Shown: positions 27,863 through 29,994 of the stretch, in pieces
Numbering within the stretch: position 1 is the first letter of the stretch
Layout of the letters: each line of letters starts with the position of its first letter
Assembly (NCBI GenBank): GCA_025351795.1
Contig: JANXVG010000023.1
Coordinates: forward strand, 1-48,986
Direction: 5' to 3'
From: Salinibacterium sp.
GTDB lineage: Bacteria; Actinomycetota; Actinomycetes; Actinomycetales; Microbacteriaceae
Length of the DNA stretch: 48,986 nucleotides
Translations under genes and position numbers: made by a program
Notes under the pieces: generated by a model
The model's database searches: none
What the model saw: only the letters and a program-made list of their open reading frames with translations
What the model was told of the DNA's origin: nothing

Positions 27863-28315
27863 CTATCGCTTGTCGGCGAAAAAGTCGAGCAGCAGGGCAG
27901 CGCATGCCTCGGCTTGCACTCCGGCAGTAACCTCGACCTGGTGGTTGAGGCGCCGGTCCCGCAAGACGTCATAGACGCTCCCCACTGCTCCGGCCTTCTC
28001 ATCCCACGCACCGAACACCACGCGCGGGATGCGCGCATTGAGAATCGCCCCCGCACACATGACGCAGGGCTCGAGGGTGACGACCAGTGTGACGTCGGTG
28101 AGATGCCAATCACCGCGTGCGGCTGCCGCCTCGCGGATGGCGATGATCTCGGCGTGCGCGGTGGGATCGCGGCGCACCTCGCGCTCATTGCGTGCGGAGC
28201 TGATCCGCGCGCCACTCGCGTCTACGATGACAGCGGCGACCGGAACGTCACCGGTTGCGAGAGCCGCGCGGGCATCGGCGATCGCAAGCGTCATCCACTC
28301 TTCGGCAGTGCTCAT
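27863..28315 (-). CDS. tadA: tRNA-specific adenosine deaminase (TadA)
   Basis: 150 aa from ATG 28315. The zinc site HAEIIAIREA and EPCVMCAGAILNARI is the TadA/CDA signature, and the length and C-terminal LLDFFADKR fit TadA, which makes inosine 34 in tRNA-Arg(ACG). A tRNA-Arg(ACG)-like remnant occurs later in the window. Divergent from upp. Confidence 0.9.
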   Translation of the reverse strand: MSTAEEWMTLAIADARAALATGDVPVAAVIVDASGARISSARNEREVRRDPTAHAEIIAIREAAAARGDWHLTDVTLVVTLEPCVMCAGAILNARIPRVVFGAWDEKAGAVGSVYDVLRDRRLNHQVEVTAGVQAEACAALLLDFFADKR

Positions 28316-28332
28316 CGAAACCCGGCTCACAG

Positions 28333-28344: not shown

Positions 28345-28977
28345 ATGCGAGTACACGTTGCCGATCACCCGCTCATCACCCACAAACTCACCGTTCTGCG
28401 CGACAAGAACACGCCGTCGCCGACTTTCCGTTCGCTCGCCGAAGAACTCGTCACTCTGCTCGCCTACGAGGCCACCCGAAATGTGCGCGTCCACGAGGTG
28501 ACGGTCGAGACACCGGTCGCTACGGCCAAGGGCCTCGCAATCAGCGACCCTCGCCCACTCGTGGTGCCGATCTTGCGCGCGGGCCTCGGGATGCTCGAGG
28601 GGATGGTCAAACTCGTGCCGACCGCCGAAGTCGGCTTCCTCGGCATGGTGCGCAACGAAGAGACCCTTCAGCCGGATATCTATGCGGAACGCCTGCCAGA
28701 GGATCTCTCCAATCGTCAGTGCTTCGTGCTCGACCCGTTGCTCGCCACCGGTGGCTCGCTCATCGCGGCCATCGACTACCTGTTCGCCCGCGGTGCAGTA
28801 GATGTCACGGCCATCTGCCTCATCGGAGCTCCGGAAGGTCTCGAAGCCGTACGCACGGCGACCGAGGGCCGCGAAGTGACCATCGTGCTCGGCGCACTCG
28901 ATGAAAAACTCAACGAGGTCGGCTATATCGTGCCGGGACTCGGGGATGCCGGTGACCGGCTGTATGGCACCGTCTAG
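28345..28977 (+). CDS. upp: Uracil phosphoribosyltransferase
   Basis: 210 aa, the usual length. The PRPP-binding loop [18 protein letters not shown] and the uracil-binding C-terminal region [16 protein letters not shown] are intact. It salvages uracil to UMP. Probably leaderless. Confidence 0.96.
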
Positions 28978-28981
28978 CCGC

Positions 28982-29010
28982 TTGACATCCCTGCGCCGAT
29001 GCAAGATAGT
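28982..29010 (+). promoter_or_regulatory. Strong promoter for the cysteine leader peptide and wHTH gene
   Basis: A perfect -35 TTGACA (28982-28987) and -10 GATAGT (29005-29010) are spaced by 17 nt. The predicted transcript start falls at 29017-29018, on the ATG of a 32-codon ORF, so the mRNA should be leaderless. Confidence 0.75.
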
Positions 29011-29017
29011 TGCAGTC

Positions 29018-29116
29018 ATGACTGTGAACACGCGTCCCCTGACCTCCGTTGGAGTTCTCGGTACCGCTGGCATGATGCCGGCGGGCGTTGTCATGTGTTG
29101 TCGAATGTGTGCCTAA
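29018..29116 (+). CDS. Leaderless 32-aa cysteine-rich leader peptide
   Basis: The peptide begins MTVNTRPLTSVGVLGTAG and ends MMPAGVVMCCRMCA. Three Cys codons (two in tandem) sit within the last seven codons, all TGT. A near-ideal promoter places transcription start on the ATG. It ends 158 nt before a winged-helix regulator gene. The design matches the leaderless polycysteine short ORFs described in mycobacteria, where ribosome progress at Cys codons controls the downstream gene. The sequence TCCTCGT, 7 nt after the stop, is complementary to the regulator's Shine-Dalgarno. Confidence 0.75.
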   Translation: MTVNTRPLTSVGVLGTAGMMPAGVVMCCRMCA

Positions 29117-29123
29117 CGGCAAT

Positions 29124-29130
29124 TCCTCGT
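29124..29130 (+). promoter_or_regulatory. Anti-Shine-Dalgarno segment of the leader
   Basis: TCCTCGT is the exact reverse complement of ACGAGGA at 29258-29264, which holds the ribosome site of the winged-helix gene. Base pairing would hide that site. It lies just past the leader-peptide stop, within reach of a ribosome at the Cys codons or stop. Confidence 0.55.
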
Positions 29131-29274
29131 CGAGTCCGGCCCGCACAGCCGGTTAGGGCTCCCGGGTTTCGCTCCTCATAACGAGTGTCACCTGATCGTT
29201 TTACCCGTATTACCCCGAAGGATCACACCCTCATCATTAGAGGCCCTTCATCACAACACGAGGATTTTAGACAC

Positions 29275-29994
29275 ATGTCTCTTGCAATTATTGACCTACC
29301 ACGTACCCGCCCGGCCTACCCAGCGCTTGCCCCGGTCGATGAGTTCGAACCCGCTGCTGCCCCTGTGGCCCCGATCGCTATCCGAGCCGTGCCTGCCGCA
29401 TCCGAAGCCCGCGGATTCGTGCTCTACGTCGGAGTGGATGAGTCGAAAGCAGCTGCCGCTGGCATCGACCTCGGCTCGATCGTGGAGCAACTCAAGCGAC
29501 TCGCCGCGCAGCTTGTTCCCACCTCGGAAACCTACGCGGCTGTCGCTCTCGCGCCTCGTGGGGCTGGCGGTCGTGATGTGGATGTGGTGCGCCTGGCTCT
29601 TCAGGATCCAGCAGCCCTCGCACGGCATCGCACCGTGGTGGAGGACGACGTTCCGGTCAAGGGCGGCGTTATCATCGACCTCTCCCGCAAGCGACTGCTG
29701 CTCGACAGCGAGACTGCAGCAGTCACCTACAAGGAGTTCGAACTTTTGCAGTATCTCGTGCTGCGCGAAGGTCGCACAATCGACCGCGCCGAACTGATCG
29801 CGTCCCTGTGGTCGGCCGACGACGCTGAGAAGCCAAACGAGCGCACGATCGACGTGCACGTTCGCCGCCTGCGCGCCAAGCTCGGCGCATACGAAGACAT
29901 CGTGCGCACCGTGCGCGGCGTCGGCTACCGGTTTGATCGTCATGCGGATGTCTCGGTTCGATTGGCGAGTACTCCGAGCCCCGACTTCTTCTAG
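29275..29994 (+). CDS. OmpR-type winged-helix transcriptional regulator (no receiver domain)
   Basis: 239 aa. The C-terminal third is a Trans_reg_C winged helix (TYKEFELLQYLVLREGRTIDR, in pieces TYKEFELLQYL and VLREGRTIDRAELI, then ERTIDVHVRRLRAKLG and VRGVGYRF). The N-terminal 130 residues are not a receiver domain and are unrecognised. The upstream Cys leader suggests its expression responds to cysteine supply, so it may control sulphur metabolism; this is inference. ACGAGGA precedes the ATG by 10 nt. Confidence 0.87.
   Translation: MSLAIIDLPRTRPAYPALAPVDEFEPAAAPVAPIAIRAVPAASEARGFVLYVGVDESKAAAAGIDLGSIVEQLKRLAAQLVPTSETYAAVALAPRGAGGRDVDVVRLALQDPAALARHRTVVEDDVPVKGGVIIDLSRKRLLLDSETAAVTYKEFELLQYLVLREGRTIDRAELIASLWSADDAEKPNERTIDVHVRRLRAKLGAYEDIVRTVRGVGYRFDRHADVSVRLASTPSPDFF

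Follow-up and report, generated by a model that had tools for sequence, protein, structure and literature searches.

A leader ORF that ends in a cluster of cysteine codons, placed in front of a gene for a transcription factor, raises two questions: what would it sense, and how would it act on the gene behind it? We studied such a pair in a 48,986-nucleotide stretch of a Salinibacterium sp. contig (JANXVG010000023.1; family Microbacteriaceae), here called the window, in which a 32-codon ORF (29018..29116) precedes the gene of a winged-helix regulator (29275..29994). Coordinates are on the forward strand unless stated otherwise. We found no report of this leader-regulator pair in open-licence PMC papers.

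The leader ORF and its promoter

A sigma-70-type promoter (28982..29010), consisting of TTGACA at 28982-28987, a 17-nt spacer and GATAGT at 29005-29010, matches the consensus at 10 of 12 positions, and one such site was found versus 0.2 per shuffle. The leader ATG (29018-29020) begins 7 nt past the -10 box, the position expected for +1. The box is conserved in relatives: 117 of 161 loci have TTGACA, allowing one mismatch, at a distance of 36-37 nt upstream of the leader ATG, whereas other offsets averaged 0.24 loci; the count of 117 is slightly favoured, because the box partly guided the by-eye assignment of 22 leaders. The near-ideal promoter predicted to start transcription on the ATG is therefore present in the sequence, and the fixed box distance in relatives suggests that transcription indeed starts there. 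The promoter follows upp (28345-28977) and, further upstream, tadA (27863-28330, reverse strand; above its NCBIfam cut-off). Among 135 loci of relatives, upp is present in 93 and tadA in 89. The segment 29000-29014 (TGCAAGATAGTTGCA) is a perfect inverted repeat over the -10 box that recurs in part of the genus and could be an operator. We also searched the promoter spacer for operator candidates, none of which was convincing.

The ORF translates to MTVNTRPLTSVGVLGTAGMMPAGVVMCCRMCA and, as predicted, ends in VMCCRMCA with TGT as three of its last seven codons, followed by TAA at 29114-29116. Its tail (29093..29113) reads ATG TGT TGT CGA ATG TGT GCC, and a Met run, ATGATG, lies at 29072..29077. 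Of 171 related genomes, 161 have a counterpart ahead of the winged-helix gene; 139 of these leaders were assigned by the tail pattern and 22 by eye from leaderless-type ORFs, two or three of the latter being weak (e.g., L096, L163 and L178). Among the 10 loci without a leader, L057 has just 147 nt of upstream sequence. The consensus is MTxNAxxLTSxEAxGxAGMMMPxxxVMCCRMC[A/R], and the common form has 33 codons (MTDNARALTSFEALGTAGMMMPGRAVMCCRMCA). Counted from the end, Arg-Met stands at -4/-3 in 150 of the 161 leaders, Cys at -2, -5 and -6 in 146, 142 and 124, and Met at -13/-14 in 102 and 107.

In an independent set of 80 named loci, the tail pattern was present in 51 of the 59 that are Microbacteriaceae-like and in 9 of the 21 from Micrococcaceae, and in an order sample of 297 genomes the exact MCCRMC site occurred exactly once in 20 of 23 family genomes and not at all in the other three. 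The tail TGTTGTCGAATG was also found upstream of Micrococcaceae orthologues. The predicted tie between a leader ORF with terminal Cys codons and the winged-helix gene thus appears to extend throughout the Microbacteriaceae and to part of the Micrococcaceae. The window's leader had no match in Pfam or NCBIfam; of seven other leaders compared with these curated families, six had none and one an irrelevant match at E 0.28. Rfam gave no match within 28900-29400 up to E 1. The single extra pattern match in the window's genome was another frame of a coding sequence and not a second leader copy, and matches at L205 and L207 were judged to be due to chance.

Some clades have lost tail Cys codons (RRRMCR, RRMCA; one leader has no Cys at all), and in several Cys is swapped for Arg, His or Ser, yet CGA ATG is kept, so that Cys may not be the sole thing sensed. 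All 157 leaders with an Arg ahead of the tail Met encode it as CGA, against a background of 86 among 2,125 Arg codons (4%) in the regulator genes, and the same holds for 60 of 60 named loci; Arg at -1 is written CGC in 48 of 50. No general pairing partner explains why every Arg-Met leader carries CGA in its tail (29105-29110 and homologues) though the codon is rare genomically, and its invariance makes codon choice in leaders a concrete problem to explain. The TadA enzyme makes the inosine tRNA that reads CGA, and tadA is a close neighbour of the CGA-bearing leader, which may be plain gene order.

The tail would also suit a whiB7-like sensor of ribosome stress or antibiotics, or else a peptide that arrests the ribosome through its conserved tail [C]CRM[C]; CGA and Arg-Met would then be the active part. 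These elements match the Cys codons in conservation, CGA ATG TGT persists in Cys-poor variants, and whiB7 is an actinobacterial precedent for a leader ORF that drives a transcription factor (PMC13236596, in the part available). According to the same partial text, the whiB7/wblC uORF resembles the present leader in that a stalled ribosome on it switches on a transcription factor, and differs in sensing ribosome stress, in the family of its regulator and in having no Cys logic. We regard this explanation as unlikely: it accounts neither for a Met- and Cys-rich leader coupled to a sulphur-free regulator nor for MCCRMC leaders in front of cysK, both described below.

Codon choice and access to the ribosome site

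We then asked whether the leader is constrained beyond its peptide. The body codons for Thr-Ser-x-Glu are strongly biased, with ACC for 82 of 84 Thr, TCC for 70 of 81 Ser and GAG for 97 of 97 Glu (background 0.65, 0.31 and 0.72). When codons were redrawn with the peptides kept, the pattern CCTC-N1-6-GAGG was expected in 31.0 of 160 leaders and found in 83; the anti-Shine-Dalgarno (anti-SD) words CCTCC and TCCTT were found in 79 and 40 versus 35.1 and 13.5. Synonymous choice in the leader body is therefore such that it favours a CCUC/GAGG hairpin and anti-SD words. The window has its own form of the family's ACCTCC..GAGG motif, a small CTCC-GTT-GGAG hairpin (29044..29054), a variant that does not fit the exact CCTC-N1-6-GAGG pattern. 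Moreover, conservation in the body is even across all three codon positions (0.67, 0.67 and 0.65), indicating that part of it concerns RNA and not peptide; together with the codon constraint, this argues that the leader acts at the RNA level in addition to being translated. These data bear on the idea that the leader peptide is itself a trans-acting product, such as a small metal- or redox-binding protein using its Met run and the CC and C of its tail. The leader is indeed rich in Met and Cys, and residues outside the tail are conserved too, but such a protein would not be expected to have equally conserved codon positions or fixed synonymous codons (CGA; ACC TCC x GAG), nor to exchange Cys for Arg, His or Ser in several clades, and we consider this idea very unlikely.

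The original prediction had placed the control element just behind the leader, where TCCTCGT (29124..29130) starts 7 nt after the stop as a putative anti-SD of the regulator's ribosome site ACGAGGA (29258..29264). In the window the two are exact complements, with 127 nt between the arms. As a conserved switch the pairing did not hold up: a complement of at least 6 nt occurs in 11 of 137 loci versus 8.0 expected with swapped partners, the pairing lengths are 3.96 nt for own, 3.89 for swapped and 3.76 for shuffled partners, and in the genus alignment the TCCTCGT segment changes without matching changes in the SD. Comparison of the orthologues' upstream regions thus sustained the Cys codons, which are mostly conserved in the 161 leaders, and not the TCCTCGT/ACGAGGA pairing. 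The window's 7-nt match is one of the three longest among the 137 loci. Its SD is predicted to be paired at 0.95 with a top partner at +12, and among the loci listed a top partner near +12 to +14 was seen only in L001, L038, L051 and L058. The predicted cost of opening the window's SD falls from 11.73 to 7.55 kcal/mol once the leader tail and the 12 nt that follow it are blocked; TCCTCGT probably contributes to hiding the SD in the window itself. Over 134 loci the same blocking lowered the mean cost by 0.16 kcal/mol (7.31 to 7.15), and in 16 Micrococcaceae loci it went the wrong way (5.50 to 5.85). The exact stalling model, in which a ribosome at the Cys codons covers TCCTCGT just after the stop and frees ACGAGGA, can draw on the 7-nt match, the predicted SD partner and the drop of 4.2 kcal/mol in the window; since the pairing does not clearly exceed that of swapped partners and the segment varies in the genus without SD changes, we think this model quite unlikely.

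The leader body gave a different result. Blocking the upstream leader lowered the mean opening cost from 7.31 to 6.11 kcal/mol. Across 39 loci, shuffling it reduced the cost from 7.13 (native) to 6.52 (p 0.035) whilst shuffling the tail gave 7.06 (p 0.85); all p-values in this analysis treat related genomes as independent. The longest complement between the leader body and its own ribosome site averaged 5.67 nt over 136 loci, compared with 5.07 for codon-shuffled and 5.31 for swapped partners, and the duplex energies were -14.1, -13.4 and -13.3 kcal/mol, respectively. The leader body is thus modestly complementary to its own ribosome site. On the strength of the complementarity and of the blocking and shuffling results, we favour, with modest confidence, a model in which leader codons attenuate translation through pairings that vary in detail from clade to clade.

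Several other pairings were considered. Tail codons pair with the ribosome site no better than shuffles (-8.05 vs -7.97 kcal/mol), and tail pairing anywhere in the spacer reached p<0.05 in 7% of 135 loci, compared with 4% for a control segment. Exact complements of the tail core are in excess (7 nt in 29 of 135 loci vs 6.5; 8 nt in 16 vs 1.8); a 6-nt permuted control was also raised (26 vs 16.8), many of the complements lie in one recurrent SD spacer, and we treat the excess as only a lead. CATCAT is enriched near the SD (81 of 138 loci vs 4.4 by shuffling). In the window it lies at 29232-29237 and is complementary to the leader's ATGATG, and we rejected this pairing because CATCAT does not track ATGATG. 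In the Micrococcaceae (31 loci examined), GCATTC(G) occurs 41-54 nt before the start in 16 of 19 loci with the GTCGAATG tail; folding indicated no effect on the ribosome site, and we rejected it as a switch. GCATTC(G) is complementary to the leader tail, and some loci carry extra GCATTC copies (L217, L219-L222, L355, L356, L358-L376).

The spacer between leader and regulator gene is 158 nt in the window and about 50-290 nt among relatives, with pyrimidine-rich stretches. It has more structure than shuffled sequence (mean z -1.78 over 135 loci; coding control -0.08), its hairpins being clade-specific. In the window, folding of the whole leader does not surpass that of shuffled versions (z -1.02). 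Hairpin H2 (29170..29187; CGCTCCTCATAACGAGTG, with a conserved CCTCATAACGG-like loop) was identified by alignment in the window's genus only. Hairpin H3 (29217..29249; GAAGG..CCTC..GAGG.CCTTC) is present in 46 of 137 loci, and its covariation is weak, one pair being changed on both sides among 26 aligned sequences. The H3 5' arm, GAAGGATC, resembles the regulator's own SD and could be a decoy or an alternative partner for CCCTTC.

No hairpin with a U run was found between leader and gene, nor a U run after H1-H3 in the alignment. A long spacer with pyrimidine-rich stretches would fit Rho-dependent termination in its C-rich, unstructured parts, relieved or promoted by leader translation, and the available part of PMC1262725 proposes a Rho mechanism for Mycobacterium cys operons, which have Cys leaders and no terminators. 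However, the sole terminator-like site in the region lies within the leader (29072-29091), and the synonymous constraint towards anti-SD words points to translation and not transcription. We rate Rho-dependent control as unlikely and retain translational attenuation as the preferred reading.

A regulator nearly free of methionine and cysteine

The regulator has 239 amino acids, with no Cys and no internal Met, and an OmpR/PhoB-type C-terminal DNA-binding domain (Pfam Trans_reg_C at residues 148-220); the N-terminal ~120 residues match no Pfam family. Its closest solved relatives by sequence and fold are DNA-binding domains of GlnR (8hml, 8hig, 8hih), itself of the OmpR/PhoB type. The DNA-binding domain alone aligns and no full-length GlnR match was obtained, so the likeness is confined to the C-terminal domain. 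An AlphaFold2 model had a mean pLDDT of 82.6 and a pTM of 0.50. Orthologues (E<=1e-30) are present in 27 of 27 genus and 147 of 150 family genomes, the window's genome having one, and a second family, whose named members are Micrococcaceae such as Arthrobacter, has orthologues of ~50% identity.

The leaders contain 1,315 Met and Cys among 5,242 residues (25%, start Met counted). The 54 full-length regulator orthologues, by comparison, have no Cys and two internal Met in 13,209 residues, and with partial proteins included (138 loci, 24,686 residues) there are no Cys and four internal Met. Thirty MtrA proteins from Microbacteriaceae, used as controls, have 67 Cys and 135 Met in 7,758 residues; Met and Cys average 2.2% over the genes of the window and make up 3.5% of upp and 3.8% of tadA in relatives' loci. 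Some results run counter to a special depletion. The 59 named Microbacteriaceae-like regulators (13,884 residues) have six Cys and six internal Met. The 21 Micrococcaceae regulators (5,598 residues) have one Cys and 38 Met, and presence of the leader in these loci does not predict a lower sulphur content (p 0.52). Six paralogous DNA-binding stretches from the window's genome (503 residues) have no Cys and 10 Met, two of the six lacking Met, suggesting that low contents of both residues are common in DNA-binding domains of this fold. Regardless of these counter-results, the sulphur depletion of the Microbacteriaceae regulator stands out.

The simplest explanation that we can offer for placing a leader rich in sulphur in front of a sulphur-free regulator is sulphur starvation; the regulator's composition could also reflect avoidance of oxidation. 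Mazel and Marliere (1989) reportedly described an 'adaptive eradication' of Met and Cys in proteins synthesized during sulphur starvation, with cyanobacterial phycocyanin as the example. The regulator is like phycocyanin in that a protein needed under sulphur shortage would lose Met and Cys, and unlike it in being a regulator and not an abundant protein. Saving sulphur in bulk therefore cannot explain the loss; the gain would lie in the protein remaining translatable at all. The pair looks like a built-in alarm for sulphur shortage, and its composition is a signature that could be searched for in other nutrient regulators.

Taken together, we consider it rather probable, from these sequence comparisons, that the region is an attenuator that reports a shortage of sulphur amino acids and switches on a transcription factor. 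Ribosomes would translate a leader of which about one quarter is Met and Cys, meeting two or three Cys codons and CGA just before the stop, and when charged Cys-tRNA, perhaps also Met-tRNA, is scarce, a ribosome would stall or queue on the leader. Free leader RNA would pair with the regulator's ribosome site and occupied leader RNA would not, so that stalling would raise translation of the regulator; the pairing signal is statistically modest and its details differ between clades. A regulator almost without Cys and Met could still be made when both are short, and would then presumably activate or repress genes for saving or acquiring sulphur. Met may be sensed along with Cys, given that the leader has kept its Met run.

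Known cysteine leaders and sulphur genes

In mycobacteria, leaderless polycysteine short ORFs act as attenuators (Canestrari et al. 2020, cited in PMC13236596 and PMC9031893; earlier PMC4633059; all available in part). As far as these texts go, the present leader is like them in being a leaderless short ORF, with the promoter box in place in 117 of 161 loci, in having consecutive Cys codons near the stop, and in lying upstream in the transcript of the gene that it would control. It differs in its conserved Met run, its invariant CGA codon and its synonymously constrained hairpin, and in a target that is almost free of Cys and Met. The downstream gene encodes a transcription factor, the winged-helix regulator, and not a sulphur or cysteine operon, and we therefore set the leader apart as a variant that would work like the mycobacterial attenuators. 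Leaders with Cys codons have also been described in acnes and for cbs of B. longum (PMC1262725). According to the available part of that paper they share Cys codons at the end of the leader ORF and the lack of an intrinsic terminator with the window's leader, and differ in taxa and target genes; its genome list includes Leifsonia xyli, for which that part names no leader.

Of 23 genomes sampled from another Micrococcales family (f10), four have an MCCRMC ORF in front of a cysK-type gene. These Cys-rich ORFs, which end in MCCRMCVECCCL or MCCRMCCEGCCL, lie directly upstream of the cysK-type genes (L181, L182, L183, L184); one of the four genes was profile-checked (cysteine synthase A, E 3.4e-58, a 150-residue piece) and the other three were identified by eye. 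They use CGC and not CGA, and have an SD-like GGAGG before the ATG and therefore do not look leaderless. One genome of family f20 (L206) has an MCCRMCGQQA leader with a CGA codon upstream of an ABC-transporter ATPase gene. The MCCRMC leaders before cysK, together with the sulphur-free regulator, lend support to the cysteine logic of the original prediction, and cysteine sensing by the leader is likely in our view. That the regulator is a master regulator of sulphur supply is possible.

In the Microbacteriaceae, no Cys-rich ORF was found upstream of cysK-type genes in 29 usable loci by the criterion used. APS reductase was matched in 1 of 40 genomes of the family and in none above the cut-off, whilst a control search was positive in 8 of 14 known genomes. 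Mostly lacking APS reductase, these bacteria would have to scavenge reduced sulphur. We offer, tentatively and as a doubtful possibility, an extended reading in which a two-part sulphur alarm is ancestral to the Microbacteriaceae and Micrococcaceae. The codons of a Met- and Cys-rich leader would hide the ribosome site, the hiding strand being CCUCC in the body and UGUCGAAU in the tail with its invariant CGA; the master regulator would have lost its Cys and Met, so as to remain translatable precisely when both are absent; and one attenuator atop the regulon would have replaced the single-operon cysteine attenuators of other actinobacteria. If true, a single conserved regulator would govern the sulphur economy of an actinobacterial family of soil, plants and cold water, and the logic of its induction could be read from its leader.

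The window's genome has a cysK match only below the cut-off, in a 458-residue frame that we take to be, probably, cystathionine beta-synthase. A search for a shared motif upstream of cysK in the family gave none that was convincing. Several loci among L266-L291 carry GTAAC-containing sites upstream of cysK, which to us are reminiscent of GlnR boxes.
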